26,398 bases of DNA, taken from positions 1 to 26,398 of IMG/VR virus record IMGVR_UViG_3300047317_000283; one strand, written 5' to 3'. A program made the translations under genes and the position numbers. Shown here in pieces: positions 4,979 to 24,500 of this stretch. The DNA is from a virus. How positions within the stretch are numbered: position 1 is the first letter of the stretch; the number at the start of each line of letters is the position of its first letter. Below the pieces are notes generated by a model, which did no database searches, was not told the origin of the DNA, and was given only the letters and a program-made list of their open reading frames with translations.

Positions 4979-5398
4979 ATGTCGAACACCTCCACCTACC
5001 TCCAGACGGCCCGCTTGAATCAGGCGCTTCGCGGCATGGTCTTCGCCCCGCCGACGAATACGTATCTCGCGCTCTTCACCGCGGACCCGACCGACGCCGG
5101 TAGCACGGTCAATGAACAGCCGATTGCCGGATGGTACGCGCGGCTGCCGATCGGCCTCGCCACCGGCTGGAGCGCGCCCGCAGCGGCAAGCGGCGCCGGC
5201 ATGCAGTGCACGAACCTGAATCAGCTTTCGTTCGGCGCGGTCACGGGCGCGCAGGTCGCGATCACGCACGCGGCGATCATGGACGCGTCAAACGGCGGCA
5301 ATCTGCTCTATCACGTCCAACTCGCGCAGGCGAAGATCCTGCAGATCGGCGACGTGATGCAGTTCCAGCCGGGTGATCTGACCGTCGTTGAGGCGTAA
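4979..5398 (+). CDS. Small tail protein, phage tail-fibre-like (Gp80 type)
   Basis: This 139-residue protein shows the pattern of a widespread family of small phage tail proteins. An N-terminal helix (TARLNQALRGMVFAPPTNTY) leads into LALFTADPTDAG, then a 'Neq.iaGWYARLPI' phrase and a compact beta domain ending with QIGDVMQFQPGDLTV. In other phages these proteins, often annotated as tail fibre protein or Gp80-like, lie beside fibre-tail adaptors, as here. The protein probably forms a beta-barrel ring or collar where fibres attach. Ten bases separate it from the previous gene; GGAA (4971-4974) before ATG 4979 is a modest ribosome site. The next gene starts immediately after its stop. Family recognition is moderate; the exact place in the tail is inferred. 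Confidence 0.6.
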   Translation: MSNTSTYLQTARLNQALRGMVFAPPTNTYLALFTADPTDAGSTVNEQPIAGWYARLPIGLATGWSAPAAASGAGMQCTNLNQLSFGAVTGAQVAITHAAIMDASNGGNLLYHVQLAQAKILQIGDVMQFQPGDLTVVEA

Positions 5399-5698: not shown

Positions 5699-5992
5699 GT
5701 GAACAAACTCGGCCGTTTCAACCTCGCGCCCGGCGAATCGACGCCGTACACGATTTTCTATAGCGACGATCTCGACTCGGGCGAAGTCGTCAATGCGACC
5801 ACGGCCACTGCAAACGGCGACGGGCTGCTCACGATCGTCTATGCGATCTACACGAACGACACCCTCATGGGACCGTACGCGAAGGTCATGGTCACAGGCG
5901 GGACACCCGGCGCGGCCTACACCGTCACCGTCACGTCGACCACAACCGACGGCCGCAAGATGATTGACACCTTCACCGTGACGATCAAGTAA
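5699..5992 (+). CDS. Phage fibre-tail adaptor-like protein
   Basis: This 97-residue protein has an all-beta, immunoglobulin-like pattern. The opening FNLAPGESTPYTIFYSDDLD is followed by a GLLTIVYAIYTND strand pair and the phrase VTGGTPGAAYTVTVTSTTTD with GRK and a final strand. The last part ('sGGTpGt.Y.Vtvt..Ts.GR....s..v.v') is characteristic of proteins annotated as phage fibre-tail adaptors, which join the tail tube to fibres. The start is GTG at 5699, supported by GGAG (5689-5692) with a 6-nt spacer; no ATG is available nearby. Its stop overlaps the start of the next gene in TAATG. It sits next to a Gp80-like protein, the usual neighbour of this family. Fold call is good, role is by family. 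Confidence 0.7.
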   Translation: MNKLGRFNLAPGESTPYTIFYSDDLDSGEVVNATTATANGDGLLTIVYAIYTNDTLMGPYAKVMVTGGTPGAAYTVTVTSTTTDGRKMIDTFTVTIK

Positions 5993-7962
5993 TGCCGACG
6001 CCGCCGATCAAACTCGACCAGTTCTCGGGGCTGATCCCGAAGACGCCGGCCTCGCTCCTGCCGGGCAATGCCGCGACCGTCGCGCAGAACTGCGACTTCG
6101 GCTACGGCGAGCTGCGCAACACGAACGACGGCGCAGCGCTCACCGCGCTCGCGAACGCCGCACAGAGCATCTACACCGAAGACGGCCTGCTCTTCTTCTC
6201 GTGGCCGACCGACGTGAACGCCGCGCGATCGCCGATCGCCGCTGACCAGTGGAACCGGCTCTACTACACGAACGGTTCGGACTTTCGCGTCGCCTCGCGC
6301 GACCTGATGACGACCACGGGCGGCGCACCGGCCGCGAGCTATCGTGTGGGCGTGCCGCGGCCGACCGTTGCGCCGACGCTCTCCGCAGTTCAGCCGCCAA
6401 ACCCGGCAACGGCCAGCTTCACGGCGAGCTTCTTCTATGAGTCGGGCGGCATCAAGTACCAGGGCACGAACGTTGCGCTCAATACGATCACGGCTGGCTC
6501 CCAGTGGACGTTCGTCTTGCCGTCGATTCAGACCGGCACGCCGTCGGGCGCACTGCCGCAGATCGAGCTCGTCGCGCGCGACGGGAGCGGCAATATCACG
6601 TTTGACATCTACACCGAGGCTTCGAGCTTCACCGGCACGAGCGACAACGCAGCCGACTGGAATCTGTCGCTCTCGGCGCCTACGTCCGGCAGCACCTATA
6701 CCCTGAACCTCACCGCCTCCGCGCAGCAAGGCGCGAATCAGGAAGCCGTTGCGTTCACTTATACGTACGTGAATATCTACGGCGAGGAAGGCCCGCCGTC
6801 GGATCCGACCATCATCACGCACGAGATCGGCCTCGAAATCGACGTGACCGTGCGCCTTGACGCGTTCAGCGCGGACTATGCGCAGGTTTCCCAGATCCGC
6901 ATCTACAAGACGCCGAGCGGATCGTCGACGGCTGCGTACTTCTATAGCGGCAGCGTGAGCATTCTCGCGCTCGGCGGCGGCCCGACATGGGTGTTCAAGG
7001 ATACGACCAAGTCCGCCGATCTCGGCGAGCAGCTTGTATCGACTGGCTATTACCCGCCCCCGGCGAACCTCACTGGCCTGATGTCCCTTCCCAACGGCAT
7101 CTTGGCCGGATGGGTCGATAACGCGCTCTACTTCTGCGTCGCCTATAAGCCGTGGGCGTGGAACCCGGCCTACGAGCTCACGTTTCCGAATCGCATCATC
7201 GGCGCGATGGCGATGGGTTCGGGCATGGTGCTCAACACGACCGCGCAACCCTATGTCATCTCGGGCACAACGCCCGACGCGATGACCGCCGCGCCCCTGA
7301 ACATCACGCATGCGGGCGTCTCGAAATGGGGCATCGCGAACGTGAACGGCCAAGTGATGTATGCGTCGCATGAGGGCATCGTCGTCGTCGTGGGCGCGCT
7401 CGGCTCGATGACCTACTCCGACCGCTTCTTCACGCGCGACGTCTGGAAGCAGAAATACGAGGCGGGGTTCGCCTCAATGCGCTTCGCGCACTGGGATGGG
7501 CGGCTGCTCGTCTATTCGTCGACGAACGCCTTCACCGCCTTCATGCTGAAGTTCGACGAGGCAGGCGGCACGATGACCGAACTGCCGAACTTCAACGCCG
7601 CATGCACGTTCATCTCCCCGATCTCCGACGGCCTCTATTACGTGAACGGCTCGACTGCCTATCAGTTCAATGGCGGCGCCGCGCTCGCCGCGACGTGGAA
7701 GTCGCGCGAGGCGGTCATACCCGGCACCGTGAATTTTGGCGCGGCCGAAGTGCTGTGCACCGGCTCGTGGACGCTCACGATGTTCACCGACAACGAGGAC
7801 GGCGTGCTGGTGCAGCGCTGGCAGCGTACCGTCAGCGGAAACCAGCGCTTCAAGCTTCCGAGCGGCTACCGTTCGCGGCGCATGCAGCTTTCCATCTCGG
7901 GCACCGGGCGCTTTCGTGAATTCCGCATGGGCGAGTCATTCCGCACGGTGGGGGTGACTTGA
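5992..7962 (+). CDS. Tail nozzle / tail tubular protein B-like
   Basis: This 656-residue protein is rich in beta strands, Thr, Ser and Gly. The N-terminus (IKLDQFSGLIPKTPASLLPG, then NAATVAQNCDFGYGELR) is the phrase that opens many podovirus 'phage tail/nozzle' proteins: the protein names a set of values, and the chain folds into a multi-bladed, propeller-like tube end. The middle contains the fibronectin-like TYTYVNIYGEEGPPSDPT and the C-terminal third has LPNGILAGWVDNALYFC and further WD-like blades. A role as the hub or nozzle below the adaptors is consistent with length and position. The start is in TAATG overlap with the adaptor and the stop in TGATG overlap with the tail tip gene. Homology was recognised only by pattern. 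Confidence 0.65.
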   Translation: MPTPPIKLDQFSGLIPKTPASLLPGNAATVAQNCDFGYGELRNTNDGAALTALANAAQSIYTEDGLLFFSWPTDVNAARSPIAADQWNRLYYTNGSDFRVASRDLMTTTGGAPAASYRVGVPRPTVAPTLSAVQPPNPATASFTASFFYESGGIKYQGTNVALNTITAGSQWTFVLPSIQTGTPSGALPQIELVARDGSGNITFDIYTEASSFTGTSDNAADWNLSLSAPTSGSTYTLNLTASAQQGANQEAVAFTYTYVNIYGEEGPPSDPTIITHEIGLEIDVTVRLDAFSADYAQVSQIRIYKTPSGSSTAAYFYSGSVSILALGGGPTWVFKDTTKSADLGEQLVSTGYYPPPANLTGLMSLPNGILAGWVDNALYFCVAYKPWAWNPAYELTFPNRIIGAMAMGSGMVLNTTAQPYVISGTTPDAMTAAPLNITHAGVSKWGIANVNGQVMYASHEGIVVVVGALGSMTYSDRFFTRDVWKQKYEAGFASMRFAHWDGRLLVYSSTNAFTAFMLKFDEAGGTMTELPNFNAACTFISPISDGLYYVNGSTAYQFNGGAALAATWKSREAVIPGTVNFGAAEVLCTGSWTLTMFTDNEDGVLVQRWQRTVSGNQRFKLPSGYRSRRMQLSISGTGRFREFRMGESFRTVGVT

Positions 7963-9128
7963 TGGCGAACATCACGCAACAGACGGCCGTCGTTCCGGGC
8001 GTCACGCAGCAAGCGCTCGACGCGATCGCCGACCAGAACGTGCGCACGGTGCTGCAGCAGGTTGTCACCGGCTGGCAAGTGCGCAACGGCGCGGCCGGCG
8101 ACGGCTCGAACGCGTTCGTCACGCGCGGCGACCTTGGTCTGGCGCAATCGTCGAGCGGCGGCTCGGGTGCAGGCGGATCGTCCCTCTCCGCTGATTCGAT
8201 CCTGCTGACCCCCGGCGCGGTCACGGCGCTTGTCAACGCGGTGCAGGCGTCGATTCTTGCGTCGCCCTTCTTCCAGTCGTTGGGCACGTCATTCAACGCG
8301 CCGTCGGGCATCACGAAGAAGCAGACGATTCTCTCGAACAGCGTCGGCCAGCTTTCGCAGGACGTCACGACGCTCGGCTCGTCTGTCGGCAATCTGAACG
8401 CGTCGCTGATTCAGGAAGCCGAGACGCGCGCGAACGCCGACGGTCAGCTTGAGGCGCAGTGGTTCGTCAAGACGGATGTCAACGGGTATATCTCGGGCTT
8501 CGGTCTCTACAGCACCGCGAAGAACGGCACGCCGACATCCCAGTTCTTCATTCGTGCGGACGCGTTTGCGATCGGCAGCCCGAGCGGGCCCGGCATCGCG
8601 CCGTCGGTGCCGTTCGTCGTCTATACGACGCCGCAGAACATCGGCGGGCAAGTCGTGCAACCGGGCGTCTACATCGGGCGCGCGGTCATCGCCAACGGCA
8701 TGATCGACACCGCGGCGATCGCGAACGCCGCGATCACGCGCGCGCTGATCGGCGACGCGGCGATCGGTTCCGCGCAAATCGGACATGCCGAGATCCAGAC
8801 TGCTCACATCGGCGAAGCGCAGATCGACACGCTGCGCATCGGTGCGAACGCGGTCACGACGATGGCGAACACCACCGGCACGACCAGTGCCGCCATCACG
8901 TATGCCTCATCGGGCGGAGCCGTACTGATCATTGCAGCCACCAGCATGGCAATTCTTGATATCTACGTGGATGGCGTGCGTATGACGAATACTAATAACC
9001 CTGCGATAACGTGGTGTGGCGTGTTGGGCGTAGGCGGTTTTTCCATCACGGTATCGACGGACCGGGATCCTAATCCCCCTTCCACGGATTCCTCGGTGAC
9101 GCTGACAGTTTTTGAGGCAAAGCGATGA
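7962..9128 (+). CDS. Tail tip / J-like fibre protein with pentapeptide repeats (DUF1983-like)
   Basis: This 388-residue protein has a helical N-terminus (residues about 15-45, ALDAIADQNVRTVLQQVVTG), a Ser/Gly linker, then a stretch reminiscent of the C-terminal (DUF1983) part of lambda J-like tail tip proteins: helical coils with 'ASLIQEAETRANADGQLEAQ', then WFVKTDVNGYISGFGL and a beta domain with FFIRADAFAIGSPSG. Residues about 239-298 are twelve pentapeptides of the form xxAxI. The last about 70 residues form a separate beta domain with lower G/C at third positions. ATG 7962 overlaps the previous stop (TGATG); the TTG at 7959 is in frame but is less likely to be the start. It probably contacts the host surface or carries the fibre. 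The stop overlaps the next gene in ATGA. Confidence 0.65.
   Translation: MANITQQTAVVPGVTQQALDAIADQNVRTVLQQVVTGWQVRNGAAGDGSNAFVTRGDLGLAQSSSGGSGAGGSSLSADSILLTPGAVTALVNAVQASILASPFFQSLGTSFNAPSGITKKQTILSNSVGQLSQDVTTLGSSVGNLNASLIQEAETRANADGQLEAQWFVKTDVNGYISGFGLYSTAKNGTPTSQFFIRADAFAIGSPSGPGIAPSVPFVVYTTPQNIGGQVVQPGVYIGRAVIANGMIDTAAIANAAITRALIGDAAIGSAQIGHAEIQTAHIGEAQIDTLRIGANAVTTMANTTGTTSAAITYASSGGAVLIIAATSMAILDIYVDGVRMTNTNNPAITWCGVLGVGGFSITVSTDRDPNPPSTDSSVTLTVFEAKR
8676..8855 (+). repeat. Twelve pentapeptide repeats in the tail tip protein
   Basis: Twelve consecutive 15-base units encode pentads ending in Ile (last one Val), mostly with Ala two residues before it: GRAVI, ANGMI, DTAAI, ANAAI, TRALI, GDAAI, GSAQI, GHAEI, QTAHI, GEAQI, DTLRI, GANAV. 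The five-residue period with small residue at i-2 and aliphatic at i is that of pentapeptide or fibre-type beta-helices. The DNA units have diverged, so the period is kept by the protein. Confidence 0.75.
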
Positions 9129-9708: not shown

Positions 9709-9758
9709 AGCCCCGGCCCCTATCCTTGTGCGTGGGTCATTGTGTCTATAGAGCGCTC

Positions 9759-10610
9759 GTGAACAACACCATTGTCTTGCCGGATGCGGGAGTCGACCGC
9801 GAAAAAGTGCTTCAGCTAGAGCGGGAGATTCAAAAGCTCCCGCAAGTCGACTGCCCCGTGCGTCATTACTTCGCGCCGGGCATGGCGGCTCGCGAGATGA
9901 CCATCCCGGCAGGCGTCGTGATCACCGGCGCTGTGCACCGGCACGAACATCTCTGCACCGTTTCGAAGGGCCGCTTGCTCGTCTCGACCGACGACGGCAT
10001 GCGCGAGATCGCCGCGCCCTACACCTTCACCTCGAAGGCGGGCAGCAAGCGCGTCGGCTATGCGCTCGAAGAAACCGTGTGGACGACCTACCACGCGACC
10101 GACACGACCGATATCGACAAGCTGATCGAGGAAATCACCGAGTCGACGAACGCCGAACTGCTCGGCGGCAGCGATAACGCGCAACTGCGCAACGCCCGGA
10201 TAGCGGCCGATCGCGAGGACTATCAGCGCTTTCTCGCAGAGTACGGACTGTCGCAGGACGTAGTCACGCGCTTGGTCGAGAACGAAGCCGATCAGGTGCC
10301 GATGCCCGAGGGCTTCGACTCACTTGAACTGCGCGCATCGGATATCGCCGGTAAGGGCATGTTTGCCACCCGCGATATTGAACCGGGTGAGCGCATCTCC
10401 CCGGTGCGTATCGATGGCAAGCGCACGCCCGCGGGGCGCTTCATCAATCATTCGGCACAGCCAAACACGGTGTTCGTGCTGCTGGAAAACGGCGACCTCG
10501 TGCTAGAGGCGAAAGAGCGCATCGCCGCGGGCGCAGAGATAACCAACTGCTACCGGCAGGCCATGAGCGTGAACGGTAGTGGGTTCAAGCCAATCGGAGA
10601 GCACGCATGA
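9759..10610 (+). CDS. Cupin-SET domain fusion protein
   Basis: This 283-residue protein has two parts. Residues about 30-125 form a cupin-like beta barrel (HYFAPGMAAREMTIPAGVVI, then GAVHRHEHL and a strand ending in KGRLLV) with His60, His62 and His64 as candidate metal ligands. After a helical linker, residues about 188-270 show a small SET domain: GKGMFATRDIEPGE (198 on), RFINHSAQPN with NHS at 230-232, and GAEITNCY with the catalytic-type Tyr265. SET proteins usually methylate protein lysines with S-adenosylmethionine. GTG 9759 is my start because AGAG lies six bases upstream; TTG 9726 and GTG 9732 are in frame but lack a ribosome site. It lies between tail and ejection genes, with an ATGA link to the next gene. 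Substrate is unknown; the SET part could be an inactive structural module. Confidence 0.7.
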   Translation: MNNTIVLPDAGVDREKVLQLEREIQKLPQVDCPVRHYFAPGMAAREMTIPAGVVITGAVHRHEHLCTVSKGRLLVSTDDGMREIAAPYTFTSKAGSKRVGYALEETVWTTYHATDTTDIDKLIEEITESTNAELLGGSDNAQLRNARIAADREDYQRFLAEYGLSQDVVTRLVENEADQVPMPEGFDSLELRASDIAGKGMFATRDIEPGERISPVRIDGKRTPAGRFINHSAQPNTVFVLLENGDLVLEAKERIAAGAEITNCYRQAMSVNGSGFKPIGEHA

Positions 10611-12529: not shown

Positions 12530-15500
12530 ATGGAACTGAACCAGGACTTTTCAGGCTTCTTCAACTCGAACAGTTCTGGTGCAGCAGCAACACCAGCAGC
12601 AACCCCGGCGACGCCTGCCCCCGCGGCACCGTCGTCGGGCGGTTTGAATCAGGACTTCAGCAGCTTCTTCCAGCAGGGATCGGCCAATCAGAACCCGGCC
12701 AGCAATCCCGCCACCGGCCGCAAGATCGACTCGGCCACGCTCGACAACATCCTCACGCAAGAGAACGCGACCGCGCTGCACCCGCTCGTCTCGGCGTTCA
12801 TGGGTCAGGAATCGAGCGGCGGCTCCAACGCCAAGACGAGCGTCGACAATGCGCACGGCGCGATGCAGATCCTGCCCGCGACGGCCGTGCCGTACATGAA
12901 GCCGGGCGAGCGGCTCGACGACACGAACAACAACATCGCGATCGGCACGCGCATCCTCGCGGACTACGCGAAGCGCTTCAACAACGATCCGGCGAAGATC
13001 GCCGTCGCGTACTTCAGCGGCCCGGGCAACGTCGCGACCAGCGGCGCCACGCCGTGGAAGCAGGACAAGGCCGACGGCAACGGCACGACCGTGTCGCAAT
13101 ACGTGAAGGGCATCCTCGGGCGCCTGGGCAATCAGCCCGCCGTCGCGCCGCAGCCGGCACCGGAAGTGCAGCCGCAAGCACCGGCCGCGCCCGATCTCTC
13201 GCAGGCACCGAAGTGGTCCGCCGTCGTTGCGAACCCGGATTTTCAGAAGCTCGACGCGAAGGGGCAGCAAGCTACGGCCGACGCCTACTTCCAGAAGTGG
13301 ATCGCGCCGAACGTCTCACCCGATCAGATGTCGGCCGCGCAATCGCAGTGGGCGCAAAAGAGCGCCGACGTGATGAAGAACGCGCAGCCGTCGACGTGGC
13401 AGAACATCAAGAACGGCGCCACGAACGCGCTCAACGCGCTCAATCAAGGCACGACGCCCGACGCGCAAGACGGCGTCGTTGGCCCGACGGTTGCCGCGCA
13501 GACGACGCAAGCCACGCCCCCCGAACAGACCGCGGGCGTGCTCGGCAACGGCAAGAATCTGCCGCAATCGCAGAATCTGCCGCCGATGCCGTTCGTCACG
13601 CCGCAGTTCCGCGATCAGGTGTTCAATCAGTACGACGCGGCCACGCCCGCGCAGCGCGCGCAGATGGTCAAGGAGCAGACCATTGGCGGCCAAGTCGCGC
13701 AGTATCGCGCGGCACAGTACGCGGCGAACCAGAACCCCGCTTCGGCTGACATCGGCACGAGCGTCGAGGACCGCACCGCGCGGCTCGTCGCCAATGGCGT
13801 CGCACCTGACGTCGCAGCCGCGCAGGCACAGCGCGAAGCCGCGAGCGGGCAGCCGACGGTCACGCCGAACTATATGAAGTCGACGGATTTCGACTTCGAC
13901 ACCGCCGCGCGCTTCCGCAATGGCAACCCGTTCGTGCGCGGCGTCGCGCAGGGCGTGGTCGGCGTCGGTCAGGCTGCCGTCGGCCTCGGCCGCTTCGAAG
14001 CGGACATGCTCGGCACGGACGTGCCCGGCGCGATGCTCGACAAGGCCGCGAAGTCGCTCTCGAACACATCGGCCGCGATCGGTCAGAGCGCGAATCCGTT
14101 CACGCGCAATCTCGAAGGCGCCGTGTCGGGCGTCACGCAGCTCGCGCCGGCGCTGCTCGGCGGCGCACTCGTTGAAGGCATGGATCTCGCGCCGCTCGCG
14201 CAGAATGCGCTTCAGATGTTCGGCCAGTCGTACAGCGAAGGGCGCGACGCCGGTCAAACGCCGGGCGAGGCGACGGTACGCGCCGGCATGATGGGCGCGT
14301 TCGCCGTGCTCGGCCATGCGTTCGGTCTGGATGCGAAGCTCGACGCGATCCGCAAGTCGGTCGCGGGCGCGTCGACCGACGATCTCGGTCAGGTCATTTG
14401 GCAGTCGATGATCCGCGATCTGCCGAGCACGCAGGCGATGGCGCTCGGCAACTTCGTCACGGACAAACTGCCGGGCGGCATCGGCCTCGCACCAGATGCG
14501 AAGTTCACGGACTGGCTGCATTCGGCCGGCGACATGTTCGTGCAGACGGCCATGATGAACGGCATGCTCGGCGCGGGCTTGGCCGGTAACGCGGGCCTCG
14601 CGCGCACGCTGCGCGGCGAATCGAAGCCGACGTTCGACGAGGACGGCGGCGTCATCACCGACAAGCACGGCAATCGCTGGAACGTCGAACCGGCTGCACA
14701 GTCGAGCGGACTCGGCGCACCGGGCACGAGCGCGAACCAGCCGCACGCGAGTTCGGTCGCGGCCGACAATGTCGTGCGCGAGATGGCGAAGGACGCCGGC
14801 ATGGATCCGGACGCACTCGTCGCGAAGCCGACGCCGGTACCGCCCGCGCCGCAAGCGCCGCAGAACATGGGCGACGGCCGCGTCGAGCCGACGATGCCGA
14901 CCGCCGCGCCGACATTCCATGCAGACGATTGGGTGACGGACGCGAACGGTACAACCCGCCTCTCGCCCGAAGCACAGGCGCGATATGAAGCGTGGGCCAA
15001 CAAATCGACTGTTGACACCGCCTCGCCAGTGGGTGCAACTGCAGCGCACGCACAGCAAGTCATGGAGTTCGCCGCGCAACGGTGGGACGCGCTGCACGCC
15101 AAGCAAGCCGGTTCGATCGAGACGGTAATGTCGCCGAGCGGCCAGGAGGATGTCTCCGTCGCGGGTGCGCAGCTCACGCCGGCCGAACGCATGGAATGGG
15201 AGACGCTCAACCGGTTCAAGAACGACCCGGCCGCCCTCGCCCACTTCTACGGCTTCGACGGCGCTCAGAACGAGCCGAGCGCGCCGAGCGCCGCGGACGT
15301 CGATGCAGCCGCGCATCAAGCCGCGACGTCGCCGAAGAACGATCTGCCCGAGCCGACGCAGGCGCAGAAGGAAGCCGGCAACTATCAGAAGGGCCACGTC
15401 GAGATTCACGGCCTCGACGTGTCCATCGAGAACCCGCAGGGCTCCAAGCGCAGCGGCGTGGATCCGGACGGCGTCGTGTGGGAAAACACGCTGCAGGACC

Positions 15501-18500
15501 ACTACGGCTACATCAAGCGCACCGTCGGCGCCGATGAAGAGCACATCGACACGTTCGTCGGCCCGAACCCGGCGAGCCGCAAGGTGTTCATCGTCGACCA
15601 GACCGACCCCGCAACGGGCAAGTTCGACGAGCACAAGGTGATGCTCGGCTATGACTCGGTCGCGGATGCCGATGCCGCGTATCACCGCAACTACGCCGAC
15701 GGCTGGAACGGTCGCGCGGCGATCAGCGAACTGCCGATCGGCATGTTCAAGGAATGGCTCGAAAAGGGCGACACGAAAGCGCCGTTCGCGCGCGAACTCA
15801 CGCCGTCGACGCGCGTGATCGCCAAGCCCAAGACCGAGAAGGAAGCGAAGGCCGCGCGTGAGAACGCGCCCGCGCAGGACACGGTTCGCATGTATCACGG
15901 CGGCGAGCCCGGCGACACGACGGGGCCGCTGTGGTTCTCGTCGAGCGAACGGTACGCGCGTGATTGGGGCAGCCGAGATGGCCGGAAGTCGCGCGTCTGG
16001 TACGTGGATCTGCCGCACGATCACCCGTCGCTCTTTAGCGAGTATCCCGAGCAGCACGCATCGCGCGGCTACACGACGAACCGTGAACTGCCGGCAGAAG
16101 ATTCAAGCCGTCGCAAGCTTTTGCCGGGCGAACCGGCGCAACCGTACGGCGCCGAAGACCCCCTCGGCGAAGTCGCGCAGCCGCCTGTCGCCAAACCGAA
16201 AACCGAACGCGAGGCCCAACAAGCCCGCAAACTGAAGGAGCAAACCGATGGCAGCAGCACCGAAGCACAAAGTCGCGCAGACGCACGCGAAGCACAAGAA
16301 GGGACCGCCCCCGGGCCTGTCGCAAGCACGCAAGGCGATGCCGCCCCCGCCGCCTCCGGGCGCAGCACCGGCACCGATGATGGCGCCGGGCGCAGCCCCG
16401 CAGCCGGGCGCGACGCCGCTGGCACCGGGCGTGGGGTACAACCCGGCGCAGACGGATCCGGGCGCGGTGCCGACGCCGGGAATGTAACGCCCGCGAGCGC
16501 CGCGCGCGATGCCGTGCTCGGTATGGTGAAGTCGGCCACGACCGAGCGCGACAAGAAAGCGCACCGCGCGCTTGCCGACTACATCACGAAGGCCGAAGGC
16601 GGCGACGCCGATGCGATCGCGCGCGTCACGAAGGCGGCCCGTGCGCTCGTGTACGACGACATCAAGCCGACGCTTGATGCGTTCGTGCGCTCGGTGAAGC
16701 CCGCCGAGCCGAAGCCGATCACCGTCACGAAGGCGGGAGAAGGCGCGCACGCGATCGTCATCGATCCGTCGGCGATGCGCGGCACGCCCAAGACCGAAGA
16801 AGCGCCGCGCGCCGAAGCGCAACCCGAACAGGAAGCCCCGAAGCGCGATAGCAGCTACGGCGCGGGCAACAAGACCTTCACGGCCGACGCCGCCGCGAAG
16901 GCGCGCGAGACGCTTCGCAAGAAGCTCGGCCAGTTGAACGCGGGCCTCGACCCCGAGATGATGCACGCGGGCCTGATGCTCGCGGGCTTTCACATCGAGG
17001 CGGGCGCACGCAAGTTCGCCGACTTCGCGAAGGCGATGGTCGAGGACATCGGCGAAAACATCCGCCCGTATCTGCGCGGCTTTTACGAGAACGTGCGCCA
17101 CTATCCGGGCTTCGACAACCACGGCATGACGCCGGGCCATGAACTCGATAGCGGCAAGGCGGAAGAGCCCGCGCAAAAAGTTGCCGAAAAGACGCAAGAA
17201 GTTGCGCGCGACGCCGCACCGAAGTCGCTCGTCGATCACTTCTATAGTGAGTTGACGGCCGGCCGTCTGCCGAAGGACAACGCCGAACTGCGCAAGGCCG
17301 TGGCGACGTTCGACGGCAAGCCCGCCGACAACGCGCGCCTGAAGCAAGCGCAGGAGGATCTCGAAGCGGCGATCGCGCACCGCGCGCGCGACATCGTGGC
17401 GCAAGGCAAGGACGAGCGCGCGACGTTCGAGACGCTTGTCGGCCTGTACAACGATCAGCCGAACCTGAACATCCGCACGAGCACGAGCATCGAGAATCAG
17501 GCGTACAGCACGCCTGCCCCGCTCGCGTACGTGGCGGCGAAGCTCGCGGGCATCGACCACGACACGAAGGTGTACGAGCCGACGGCCGGCAACGGCATGC
17601 TGCTGCTTACGGCAGACCCGAAGAACGTCACGGCGAACGAGCTCGAAGATCAGCGCTTCGGCAACCTGAAGGCGCAAGGCTTCGATGCGATTCAGGGCGA
17701 CGCGCTGCAGGCAGTCGAGTCGGGGGCGGTGCCGGTCGATTCGCAAGACGCCGTCATCACGAACCCGCCGTTCGGCTCGCTCAAGGACGACGCGGGCAAG
17801 GCGACGAAGGTCAGCTTCGACGGCTTCAAGATCGGCAAGATCGATCACCTGATCGCGGCCGAAGCGCTGCGCACGCTGAAGGACGACGGCAAGGCAACGC
17901 TCATCATCGGCGCGGACAAGGTCGCGGGCGGACTGAGCACGGACGACCGCATCTTCTTCAACTGGCTCTACGGCAATTACAACGTCACGTCGCACTTCGA
18001 AGTCGATGGGAAGCTGTACAGCCGCCAGGGCGCCGCGTGGCCGGTGCGCGTCATCACGCTCGACGGCCGCGAAAAATCGAAGCAAGTCAGCCCGCGCGCA
18101 GGTAGCATCGCACGTGTAGATAACTGGAACGATGTCTATGAACAATTCCGAAACGGTCTGGACGCCCAAAAGCCCGATGAACGAGTCGCAGAAGGCCGCA
18201 CTGACAGTGCCGGCAAGCCCGCGGCAGTGGATGACGCGAAGCCTGCTGATGTCGCTGCTGGAAAGCAAGCTGCGGGCAATGATCGACGCGGATCCGAAGG
18301 AAGCGCGCGCGGCGCTGGAGATGTCGCAGGAAAGCGCGCCGGATCTGTGGACGATCAGCGAGCAAAACCCGATGAAGGACTGGCCGACACTGATCGTGCA
18401 CAGCGACGGGATGACACGCCTGTTGAGTCTGATCGACTGGACGCTCGAAGCGAAGCCGGGTCCGAACCCGCCGAAGCCGGAAACGATGGATCTGCGCGCG

Positions 18501-21500
18501 CTGCTGGAAACGATCGCGTAAATAACGACCCGGACAATCAGTTCCAGGCGAAATACATCCCGCGCTCGGGCCGCAAGGACGAGGGCGTGCTCATTCCGGT
18601 CAACATGGCCGGGCCGACGCAGGACGCGCTCAACCGTCTTGAAGATCAAGTCGGCAACATCGATAAGTTCGCCGCGCGCGAACTCGGATACGACTCGGTC
18701 GAGCAGCTTCACGATGCGCTGATGGGCCTGCAGGTCGACTCGGTCGCGTCCGCCATTCACCAGATCAGCCGCGGCAAGGGCACCATCATCGCGGACCAGA
18801 CCGGCATCGGTAAGGGTCGGCAAGCCGCGTCGGTCATCCGGTGGGCGGCGAAGAACGGCCATATTCCGGTGTTCATCACGGTCAAGCCGCAACTCTTCAC
18901 GGACATGCACGGGGACTTGGCCGACATCGGCACGCACGACGTCGCGCCGTTCATCATGAACTCCGATGCGTGGATCTCGGGCCCGGGCGGCAACAAGCTC
19001 TTCGCCAACAAGCCCTCGCAGCACCGCAAGAACATCGATGCAATCGCGGCCACGGGCGAACTGCCCGAAGGCAGCAACGCCGTGTTCCTCACCTACTCGC
19101 AGATCAACACCGAGAATCGCCAGCGCGCGGCGCTCATGGCGCTCGCGCACCGCGCGATCTTCGTGCTCGACGAGTCGCACAATGCGGGCGGTGCATCGGC
19201 GACGGGCGAATTCGTGAAGGGCGCGCTCGACGGCGCGCGCGGCGCCGTGTACCTGTCGGCGACCTACGCGAAGCGCCCCGACAACATGCCGGTCTATTTC
19301 AAGACCGACATCGGCGACGCGATCGGCGACGACGAGCAGCTTCTGAACGCGATGACCGCGGGCGGCCTGCCGCTGCAGACGGTCGTGGCGAACAACCTCG
19401 TGAAAGCCGGGCAGATGTTCCGCCGCGAGCGCAGCTATGACGGCGTGAGCATCGAGACGCAGACCGACACCGCGCGCCGAGCCGAGCACGAGAAGCTGTC
19501 CGACCACGTCACCGAAGCACTGCGCGCGATCGTCGACGCCGACAAGGCGTTCCACGAAGGCCACGTCGCGAACATGAAGAAGGACGCCGAGCAACAAGGC
19601 GCGGCCATTCATGACATCGCGGGCAATCAGGCATCGTCGAGCGTCAACCACACCGAATTTTCGAGCGTGGTTCACAACTTCGTGCGTCAGATGTTGCTTG
19701 GCCTGAAAGCGGATGCGGCAGCCGACAAGGCGATCGAAGCGCTCAAGGCGAACAAGAAGCCGCTCATCGCCGTGGAAAACACGATGGGCTCGTTCCTCGC
19801 CGAGTATGCCGACAACAACGGCATCAAGGTGGGCGACCCGCTCGGCAAGTTCGACTATCGCACCGTGCTCTCGCGCGCGCTCGAACGCACGCGCTACGTG
19901 ATCGTGCAGAAGCCGAACGGCGACAAGGAAAAGGTCTATGTGCCGATCGAGGCGCTCGACGGCGGCACGCGCCGCGCGTACGCCGACGCGCAGGCCGTGA
20001 TCGACAAGCTGAAACTCGACATCCCGGTTTCGCCTATCGACTGGATGCGCCACCGGCTGGAGAAGGCAGGCTATAGCGTGGCGGAAATCACCGGCCGCAA
20101 TCTCGCCGTCGACTACTCGGGCGCCAAGCCCGCGCTCGGCCAGATCGCGCCGGAAGAACAGACGGACAAGGTCGGCACGACGCGCCGCTTCAACGCCGGC
20201 TCGCTCGACGCGCTCGTGCTGAACGTGGCCGGTTCGACCGGTATCAGCCTGCACGCGTCGGAGAAGTTCAAGGATCAGCGCCAACGCCATATGGTCGTCG
20301 CGCAACCGGCGCAGGACATCAACATCTTCATGCAGATGTTGGGCCGCATTCACCGCACCGGCCAAGTCGTGCTGCCCGAGTACTCCATCCTGAACGTCGA
20401 TCTGCCGGCCGAGAAGCGCCCGACGGCGCTCCTGTCGAAGAAGATGAAGTCGCTCAATGCGAACACGTCGAGCAACACCGAATCGGCGACGTCGATCAAG
20501 GCGCCGGACATGCTCAACAAGTACGGCGATCAGGTGATCACGCAATACCTGCTCGACAACGACGAGTTGCGCCGGCGCCTGGGCATCGACGCTCTGCCCG
20601 ACGACGGCAGCGCGGTCGATGACATCGCGCGCAAGGCAACCGGCCGTTTGGCACTGATGCCCGTCGAGACGCAGCACGCGTTCTACAACGAAGTGCAGGC
20701 GCAGTACGAATCGCTGATCGACTATCTGAACCGCACGAACCAGAACGAGCTCGAACCGCGCACGTTCGACTACGACGCGAAGGAAACGCGCGCCGAGCTG
20801 CTCCACCAGGGCGACAACCCGGAAACGCCTTTCGGCGAGGACGCTTACTACGGCGAGTACTCCATCAAGGCGCAGGGCAAGCCGATGACGCCGGACGAGA
20901 TCCGCGCGGAAGCCACCGAGAACCTCGGCGGCCAGACCCCGCAGGCGCACGCCGACGCGCTCGTCGCGAAGCTGCGCACGGAGTTCGAGGCAGGCGTGAA
21001 GCGCGATCGCGAGCGCAACGGGCTCGGCGCGACGTTCGACGAAGAGAAGTATCGCAAGGCGCTCAAGGCGACGAAAGTCAACGACGAGACGGCCGAGCGC
21101 ATGGTCGAAGAGCAAAAGCGCAACTATCAGCAGCACGGTATGCCGGCCGAGTTTGATGCGAGCGCCGCGGGCGCGATGGGCGCGACGGCCGACCGCGCGA
21201 CGTCCTTCATCAAGGATCACCGCATCGGCACGTTCTGGCGCGTCGAGATCAACGGCGAGCTGTATAACGCCGTCGTGACCGATCTGAAGAGCACGCACAA
21301 GGAAAGCGGCAACCCGTTCTCCATGAGCAAGCTGCAGGTTTCGCTCGCGCTGAACGGCTCGTTGCGCCACGTCACGTTGCCCGCGACGCAGTTCGGCAAG
21401 ATCGAAGTGTCGAGCCTCTCGGGCCGCGCTGATGATCTGTTCCGCGTGCGCCCGGGCAACGAGCGCGAGACGGCCAAGATCGTCACCGGCAACCTGCTCG

Positions 21501-24500
21501 CCGCGTACGGCGAAATGCAAGGCTCGTCGGGCACGATCATCAACTTCACGAAGTCGGACGGCACGACCGAGCAGGGCATTCTCCTGCCGAAGAAGTTCAA
21601 CTTCGAATCAAACGTGCGCGGCGACTATCGTCTGCGCACGGGCGCCGACGCGCTGAAGTTCCTGCAGGCGTCGCAGGACGAGAACATCGCCCGCTTCGGC
21701 ATCGCGAGCCGCGACGGCGTCGTGCGCGTGCGCCCGCAGGGCCGCGACATCACGATTCAGGTGCCGAAGTCGAAGGCAAAAGGCGGAAAGTACTTCCTCG
21801 ACCGCGCGCTGCTCGACCAGACGGGCGACTTCGTCTCGTCCTCGAAGTGGATGGAGGCGACCGTGCGCGGCGAGCGCGCGGAGAAGGCGCTCGACGTGCT
21901 GATGAACAAGTCGGCGCTCTACGCCCTGCCCTCGATGGCCGAGGAAGCGCGCACGATCCTGAACGACCCGAAGCCCGCAGCGCCGACCGAGGCAAAGAAG
22001 CCGGGCGAGCACTTCGACCTGCAGGACATGTCGGGCCTCGCGCGCGACAGCGCACTCGCCACCACGCCCGAGCCCGTGCGCACGTCCGCCCTCACGACGC
22101 TGCGCCGTCTGAACAAGAAGCTCGAAGCGGGCGAGATGACCGATGCGGAATTCCGCCTCGCGACGCAAAACCTGCTGTGGAAGCTGGAGAACAAGCGCGA
22201 CGGCCAAGTCGAGCGCAAGCTCGCGCGCGACGACCGCGAGCGCGGCGAACTCTATGTGCGCGAGCGCTTGCTGCGCGCCGCGCGCCAGGGCGACATCTCG
22301 CGCGATTCGGTCGACTTCGCGCAGTGGCTGCTCGATCAGAATCCGGCGATCGCCGACGATCTCGGTTTCTCGGTGCGCACGCCCGGCATGGATCAGAGTG
22401 GCACGGCCGGCATGTACAGCAGCATCGCGCGCGTCGTGCGTCTGTTCAAGGGAAGCACGAACGAGACGACGGCCGTGCACGAAATCCTGCACCACACCGA
22501 GCGCATGATGCCGGAAGACGTGCGGCACGCGATCTATAAGGCATGGTCGCGCGACTGGCAGGAAGCGTACAAGCGCGCGACGCCCGAGCAAAAGGCCGCG
22601 TTCGGCGACATGCTCGCCTCGTCGCTCGGCAGTCAGAGCGCATGGGCGCGCGTCGCGAAGGCATTCCGCGATGGCGTGCTCAACTACGACGATCACTACA
22701 AGCTGGTGAACCCGTCCGAATATTGGGCGGTCAAGGCAACCGACATCCTGAAGGACCGTTTCGATGCGAAGCGCACCGGATGGGTCGCGCGCGCCAAGCA
22801 GTGGCTGTCGGAACTGGTCGAAAAGGCGAAGGGACTCTTCGGCATGGCATCGGATTCGCCGATCCTGCGCGGCCTGAAAGACGTGCTCAAGGGCGACGCG
22901 ACGCTCAAGACCGACACGATGATGTCGGAAAAGGCGCCGATGGCCGATATCTCGAAGTCGGCAAGCGACGCCGCGGACGAGCGCTTCAAGAAAGTCGCCG
23001 ATACCCTGCTCGACAAGAACAAGTCGGTCAAGACCTTCGGCTGGTGGGACAAGACGCTCGGCACGCAGTTGCACAAGGCATTGAAGGACGAGCACTACGG
23101 CCGCGTGTTCGACACGGCGCGCAAGCTGCACAACACCGTCGCACTCGCCGCGGTCCGCCCGGCCGAGCACGCGCCGAATGTCGTGCCGCCGACGGCGAAC
23201 TTCCGCCAGAACGTGAAGAAGCTGTTCGCGGGCGCGCGCCAGACCGAGCAGATGCGCCGCGCCACGCAGGCGCTGCTCGACGGCACGCTCTCGGGCGACA
23301 ACGTCATGCAGGGCAAGATCTGGTCCGACCGGCATCTCGAAGAGAAGTACGGCCTGACCGAAGAAGGCAAGCGCGTCTATCAGCAAACGCGCGACGCCGT
23401 CGACGCGTCGCTCGACGAAGTCGCCGCGTCCGAGGCGTGGGGCATGGCACAAGGGTTCGTGCCGAAAGAAATGCGCGAACTGATCATCGACAAGCCGAGC
23501 GCGGCGCAGCGCCTGATCCGCGAATCGCTCGATGCGAAGATCAACATGCTGACGAAGGCCCTCGACGCCGCAGTCACGAAGGGCGAGACGGAACGCGCGA
23601 GCGGCCTGCAGGCAATGCTCACGCCGTACGAAGAGACGCGCGAGAAGGTCGAGGACATTTTCGAGCGCGCCGAAATGCTCAAGTCGGGCGGCTACCTGCC
23701 GCTGATGCGCTTCGGCAAGTACTCGGTCTACGCCTATCACATCGACCCGGAGACGGGCATGCGCGAGGTGGATCCGGAGACGGACCAGCCGATGACCGCC
23801 TACTTTGGCCTCTTCCCGACCGAAGCGGAAGCGCGATTCGAAGCCGAGCGGCAAGCGATGCTCTACAAGGACGACCCGAGCGTGCAGATTCAGCGCGGCG
23901 TGAAGAGCGAGAAGGCGCACCAGCTTTATGAAGGGCTCTCGCCTGAAACGCTCGCCCTCTTCGCGGACAAGGTCGGCGCGGACGAAGCCATGAAAACGGT
24001 CATCCAGCTTGCGATGTCCGAGCGCTCGGCATTGAAGCGCCGCCTTGAGCGTCAGGGCATCGCCGGTTTCAGCCAGGATTTGCCGCGCATCCTGTCGAAC
24101 TTCCTGACGAGCAACGCACGCTTCGCCGGCCAGCGCTATTACATGCGCGATCTGAACCGCGCGATCACGGACATTCCGCAGGCAAAGGGCGACGTGATTG
24201 ACGAGGCGATCGCGCTGAAGAAGTACATGTTCAACGGCGGGGCCGCGGGCAACAACGTCACGGCCGCAATGTTCGCGTGGTATCTGGCGGGCTCGCCGGT
24301 ATCGGCTGCGACGATCATCACGGAAATGCCGCTCAAGACGATTCCGTTCTTGGCGCAGCACGGCATCTCGCGCGCGATCGCCGCGGTCGCGAAGGCCATG
24401 CCGTACGCGCTCGGCAAGAAGGAAATCAAGGATCCGGAGTATCGCGCGGCCGTGCAGCGTGCGACGCGCGAAGGCATCGTGAAGTCGCAGGAGATTTTTC

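Follow-up and report, generated by a model that had tools for sequence, protein, structure and literature searches.

A compact SET domain fused to a cupin barrel in a podovirus late operon: a candidate methyltransferase encoded directly ahead of the DNA-ejection genes

Why should a tailed phage encode a SET domain within its late operon, immediately before the genes for DNA ejection? This question is raised by a stretch of viral DNA of 26,398 nucleotides (IMG/VR record IMGVR_UViG_3300047317_000283, positions 1 to 26,398), hereafter referred to as the window. A preliminary description, prepared from the nucleotide sequence alone, had reported a SET domain fused to a cupin-like barrel, encoded between tail and ejection genes and translationally coupled to the latter. 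From this arrangement, the possibility was raised that a virion protein or a host protein is lysine-methylated.

Features of the locus are summarized in Table 1. The open reading frame extends from the GTG at 9759 to the TGA ending at 10610, and the conserved part of its product starts near residue 14. The gene order reported earlier was confirmed: the tail-tip gene (7959-9128), identified by its PF09327 match, is located upstream, separated from the cupin-SET gene by two small genes, and a gene of the P22 gp7 family, assigned by means of an iterated search, follows downstream. Translational coupling is likewise evident, since the ATG of the ejection gene at 10607 overlaps the cupin-SET stop codon (GCATGA, 10605-10610) and is preceded by GGAG at 10596-10599. 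For the 390-residue product of the subsequent gene, no family match was obtained in Pfam and PHROG searches. The giant protein encoded thereafter is likely an ejected polyvalent protein resembling that of phage BcepIL02; it also contains a domain that Pfam names InPase.

Table 1. Positions of the cupin-SET gene, its domains and neighbouring features within the window.
Feature	Position	Strand	Basis or remark
Tail tip / fibre protein	7959..9128	+	PF09327, E=2.7e-13; upstream of cupin-SET gene
Cupin-SET fusion gene, 283 aa	9759..10610	+	ORF call; GTG start likely, TTG at 9726 as alternative
Cupin (RmlC-like) barrel, residues about 29-129	9843..10145	+	AF2 and VIA-align, Z 11.6 to 5j4g; PHROG 12032
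Helical linker, residues 141-181, with invariant D154 and D178	10179..10301	+
Compact SET domain, residues 182-267, without SET-I insert; G198/G200, N230 H231, P235 N236, E260, Y265	10302..10559	+
GGAG (10596-10599) and ATGA overlap (10607-10610), translational coupling with next gene	10596..10610	+
P22 gp7-family DNA-ejection protein, 246 aa	10607..11347	+	jackhmmer, E=3.7e-08 to P22 gp7; PHROG 8003/611
Second ejection-type protein (gp20-like slot), 390 aa	11357..12529	+	position only
Giant protein, 4411 aa, gp16 slot	12530..25765	+	SLT transglycosylase, DarB-like region, methyltransferase-like region, Strawberry-notch helicase

The SET domain was recognized by Pfam at residues 225-265 (E=6.7e-11), and the family profile matched SET chains of the PDB with E=1.1e-10. 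All motifs named in the preliminary description are present, namely G198-K-G200-MFA, R227-F-I-N230-H231-S followed by P235-N236, and E260 followed by Y265. A full-length AlphaFold2 model, computed from a 62-sequence alignment (mean pLDDT 90.5), comprises a barrel (residues 29-129), helices up to residue 174 and the SET domain (residues 182-267); how cupin and SET are placed relative to each other is uncertain, since the full-chain pTM amounts to only 0.64. Linker and SET modelled alone reached a pLDDT of 93.4 and a pTM of 0.85. This partial model superposes on hSET8 with bound H4 peptide and AdoHcy at 1.2 Å over 76 residues (Z 10.1) and on vSET at 2.3 Å over 81 residues, and the full model matches MLL3 at 1.9 Å over 81 residues (Z 10.6, 32% identity). 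As judged through superposition statistics only, for the SAM pocket as well as the lysine channel, the domain fits AdoHcy-bound SET enzymes, and a loss of the cofactor pocket, which would speak against the earlier interpretation, was not seen at the level of the fold.

Conservation of what remains of the domain is strict. Little or no variation is seen at G198, G200, R222, G226, R227, N230, N236, E260 and Y265, and the complete catalytic set (G, G, N, H, N, E, Y) occurs in 85 of 87 distinct members; one exception carries Q in place of H231, the other lacks the Tyr column owing to a gap. Pooled pN/pS values of 0.26 for SET and 0.22 for cupin indicate purifying selection. Based on the strict catalytic set and the fold, a working SAM-dependent methyltransferase is argued for, and the protein is probably an active methyltransferase of some kind. 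Within the Burkholderiales clade that includes the window, SET has diverged at about four times the rate of the cupin, with the catalytic residues kept: for two pairs (window 10302-10559 versus L002, and L005 versus L093), SET dN values of 0.44 and 0.39 were obtained versus about 0.10 for the cupin.

The domain shares the fold, GxG, NH...PN, E and the catalytic Tyr with MLL/KMT2, EZH2, SET8 and PBCV-1 vSET, but differs from these enzymes in being cupin-fused, encoded by a tailed phage and devoid of the SET-I insert. Between the second Gly of GxG and the Asn of NHS, exactly 29 residues are found in 86/87 distinct members, and alignments show roughly double this length for MLL1. Compared to MLL or SET8, about 40 residues fewer are present due to the missing insert, and a stretch of 82 model residues corresponds to 124 residues of SET8 and to about 104 of vSET. 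In known enzymes, SET-I shapes the peptide groove, and we know of no characterised SET enzyme that lacks it entirely. Since SET-I is missing, we classify the window protein as a compact variant of the SET fold, probably a methyltransferase, and keep it apart from the classical SET KMTs. The missing insert and the constant 29-residue connection would also suit a dead SET domain, that is, a structural beta-clip domain for binding or oligomerisation that performs no methylation, and phages use beta-clip folds structurally. However, nearly all members, including those with as little as about 31% identity, retain the catalytic Tyr and N-H, and the domain is under purifying selection, which makes a dead domain unlikely.

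The fusion to a cupin-like barrel was also borne out. Structure matches of the full model fall into two sets, small cupins and SET enzymes, and the N-terminal part adopts the double-stranded beta-helix barrel of cupins in the model, with HP0902 as the best structural match (Z 11.6, 2.3 Å over 86 residues). A conserved set of the motif 1 metal ligands HxH...E was not found in alignment columns 56-71 of the 87 members, and a structural rather than a metalloenzyme cupin is therefore likely. The helical linker belongs with the SET domain, which it accompanies where SET is a separate gene.

A different role is suggested by database names. The first half of the protein is matched by PHROG 12032 (E=2e-60), named 'short tail fiber protein', and proteins of this family and of PHROG 24280 ('tail fiber adhesin') share the cupin domain and gene slot with the window protein but lack its SET domain. 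A short tail fibre or adhesin would be in line with these annotations, with a homologue in Shewanella phage X14 annotated as structural and with the tail genes upstream. However, small cupins are what the model resembles in this part, and the matches listed include neither a fibre nor a receptor-binding domain. Moreover, the gene is coupled to ejection rather than fibre genes, and a profile search found no chain of the cupin-SET family in any solved virion. A fibre function is thus very unlikely, and the label 'short tail fiber' is supported neither by fold nor by position.

The complete protein was assigned to PHROG 34170 by a full-length match (E=4.5e-63; residues 14-270 of 283 aligned to positions 17-280 of the 296-position profile), whose members have the same cupin-SET layout. 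The family is real, conserved and widespread, and no function is assigned to it. The SET signature is kept in 87 distinct full-length homologues representing about 48 clusters at 80% identity, far more than chance would produce. In the phage collection, 58 records with the cupin were found, of which 8 are full-length fusions (fewer distinct phages, as some records are duplicates); one scan of viral contigs yielded at least 358 relatives, and genomes contributed 23. Ralstonia phage Firinga, seen in the structure library, is among the nearest phage records, and cultured phages with the SET domain include Rhodoferax phage P26218 and Pseudoalteromonas phage PH1. SET proteins in virion operons had previously been considered unusual, a view that has to be revised given a common podovirus family with hundreds of loci in IMG/VR.

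The position of the gene is equally consistent. In P22-type and T7-type phages, the cupin gene is preceded by the last tail gene, which encodes a stabilisation protein, a needle or tail tubular B, and followed by the first ejection gene. The downstream gene starts within -28 to +39 bases of the cupin gene's stop in 90/90 loci with a readable downstream gene, mostly as ATGA, and encodes a gp7-family ejection protein in 83 of these 90 (P26218 as seed). The same tail-to-first-ejection slot is held by gene 14 in P22 and gene 13 in T7, but their products belong to different Pfam and PHROG families (P22 gp14 to DUF2824 and T7 gp13 to PF11090 as Pfam families), and at this level of family assignment no sequence relation to the cupin protein was seen. 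Based on slot and coupling, action during assembly is proposed, with the cupin as the presumed docking part.

The closest analogy, a positional one, is provided by the Lessievirus BcepIL02, whose gp65, a presumed modifying enzyme annotated as acyl-CoA N-acyltransferase, is encoded between virion genes in the same part of the operon, ahead of ejection and DarB-like giant genes. It represents a different enzyme class, further genes intervene, and the assignment is based on the depositors' annotation, with a weak Pfam match of E=0.16. BLAST of BcepIL02 gp68 against the window's ejection protein gave no match. Across gp65-gp67 of this phage (L271:14066-16224), an annotated GNAT acyltransferase and a PAPS reductase-like protein precede the ejection genes, and this Lessievirus region may possibly be a slot for assembly-time modifying enzymes.

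The SET domain is not a fixed part of the cupin protein. Among 270 loci, 181 were fused, 81 had the cupin only, three had separate cupin and SET genes and three had SET only. Some contigs are counted more than once because the scans overlap, and the proportion of fused to lone forms is biased by the search patterns used. Mapped onto a cupin tree with 84 fused and 60 lone proteins, the presence or absence of SET requires 10 changes, at least four of them forced by well-supported branches; SET has thus been gained and lost repeatedly and is an optional module. No relocated SET was detected elsewhere in 19 lone-cupin records, nor in T7 or P22, and the one match of this search (G013) is itself a fusion.

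Where SET occurs as its own gene, its neighbours are mostly of the virion type; portal-like and ejection-like neighbours were recognized by eye from sequence resemblance rather than by family search. Free-standing mini-SET genes are located directly beside portal-like genes at L202:4992-5420, L205:4334-4762 and L236:4593-4973, before the portal gene in L202 and L205 and after it in L236. In L111, SET is encoded two genes ahead of an ejection-like protein, and in L108 the separate SET gene adjoins the cupin gene. In L109, the SET gene, which may be a remnant, has replication and host genes as neighbours. These arrangements also bear on a self-directed function, in which SET would methylate the cupin domain or the linker of the same polypeptide. 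The fusion itself speaks for such an activity in cis, and a G-x-K motif is common in the cupin (76/87), but the free-standing SETs of L109, L111 and L236 have no detected cupin nearby, and we consider the likelihood of self-methylation to be slim, lower even than that of a fibre function.

Candidate acceptor lysines were searched for among virion proteins. Lysines are few in the coupled gp7-type ejection protein, and an alignment of 84 downstream proteins of this type contained no lysine column above 40%. Among gp4-, gp10-, gp20-, gp16- and coat-type flank proteins, no lysine was kept in SET-bearing but missing in SET-less phages, the portal and gp16 sets being too small to judge; a gp4-type lysine at 91% also occurs in SET-less relatives. 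For the window, this comparison is indirect because its own tail proteins lie outside those alignments. Since no conserved or SET-tied virion lysine emerged, room is left for a host substrate or a non-catalytic role.

An active SET methyltransferase with a host protein as main substrate, serving takeover or protection with an incidental position in the late operon, would agree with this result. It would also agree with an optional module that shifts between gene positions and with the SET dN of 0.44 versus 0.10 for the cupin, as expected for a varying target. Furthermore, changes in the methylation of host EF-Tu and other proteins accompany phage infection (PMC13288928). However, the free-standing SETs of L202, L205, L236 and L111 still lie by portal or ejection genes, the fused gene overlaps the ejection gene, and late expression leaves little time for takeover. 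A host target is therefore regarded as rather improbable.

For the cupin-SET gene, we instead propose an assembly-time protein-modifying factor, i.e., a SET methyltransferase docked by a morphogenesis-slot cupin and directed at a late virion substrate; this explanation is considered as apt to hold as to fail. In this view, a morphogenesis protein of podoviruses would have the cupin barrel as its conserved core; in the gene order it takes the place of P22 gene 14 and T7 gene 13, and it would be made together with the first ejection protein, with which its reading frame overlaps. The compact SET domain, a putative lysine methyltransferase, has been joined to it in many lineages or is encoded nearby as its own gene, and the cupin would most likely hold SET near its substrate during assembly of the head-tail junction or ejection core. 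SAM is predicted to be bound via GxG and N-H, and Tyr265 to serve in the methylation of one or more lysines, while the constant R-x-x-x-K-R-T-P-A-G-R loop, or a bound partner, might stand in for the missing SET-I groove. The missing groove, the dispensability of SET (0/19 lone-cupin records carry one) and the lack of a conserved acceptor lysine count against this explanation, and the chances that the substrate is a late virion protein are about even. It is conceivable, if on balance doubtful, that widespread phage minimal SET lysine methyltransferases without the SET-I groove, docked by cupins, methylate the DNA-ejection or portal machinery during assembly and thereby form a dedicated virion-methylation system.

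Methylation of virion proteins itself has precedent. In Cellulophaga baltica phages, methyl-lysine was found on virion structural proteins, which the 2026 paper reports as a first for phage virion protein methylation; these phages have no known methyltransferase of their own, and host enzymes were proposed (PMC13288928), whereas the window phage encodes its own candidate enzyme. A SET ORF was mentioned in passing for a myophage (PMC9025141), and a survey of polyvalent proteins of phages mentions neither a SET domain nor a cupin (PMC5512222). In the open full-text literature, no published description of phage cupin-SET proteins was found. The present family would add a large phage group with its own candidate enzyme, tied to ejection proteins by reading-frame overlap. 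If true, the proposal would illustrate to what size a functional SET methyltransferase can be reduced. It also suggests a common theme, modifying or assembly helpers, for the obscure gene slot ahead of the ejection proteins, which P22 gene 14 and T7 gene 13 occupy in their genomes.

Two further observations were made in the window. On the minus strand, an open frame of 1805 residues (16103-21520) runs antisense to the giant gene and is most likely an artefact of high-GC coding sequence. Moreover, the products of 4979-5398 and 5699-5992 are relatives of fibre I gp80 and the fibre-tail adaptor gp77 of Ralstonia podophage GP4 (PF23140, PF23148), the virion of which has been solved (PDB 8jou). Because of this relationship, the virion architecture of the window phage can be modelled on a solved relative.
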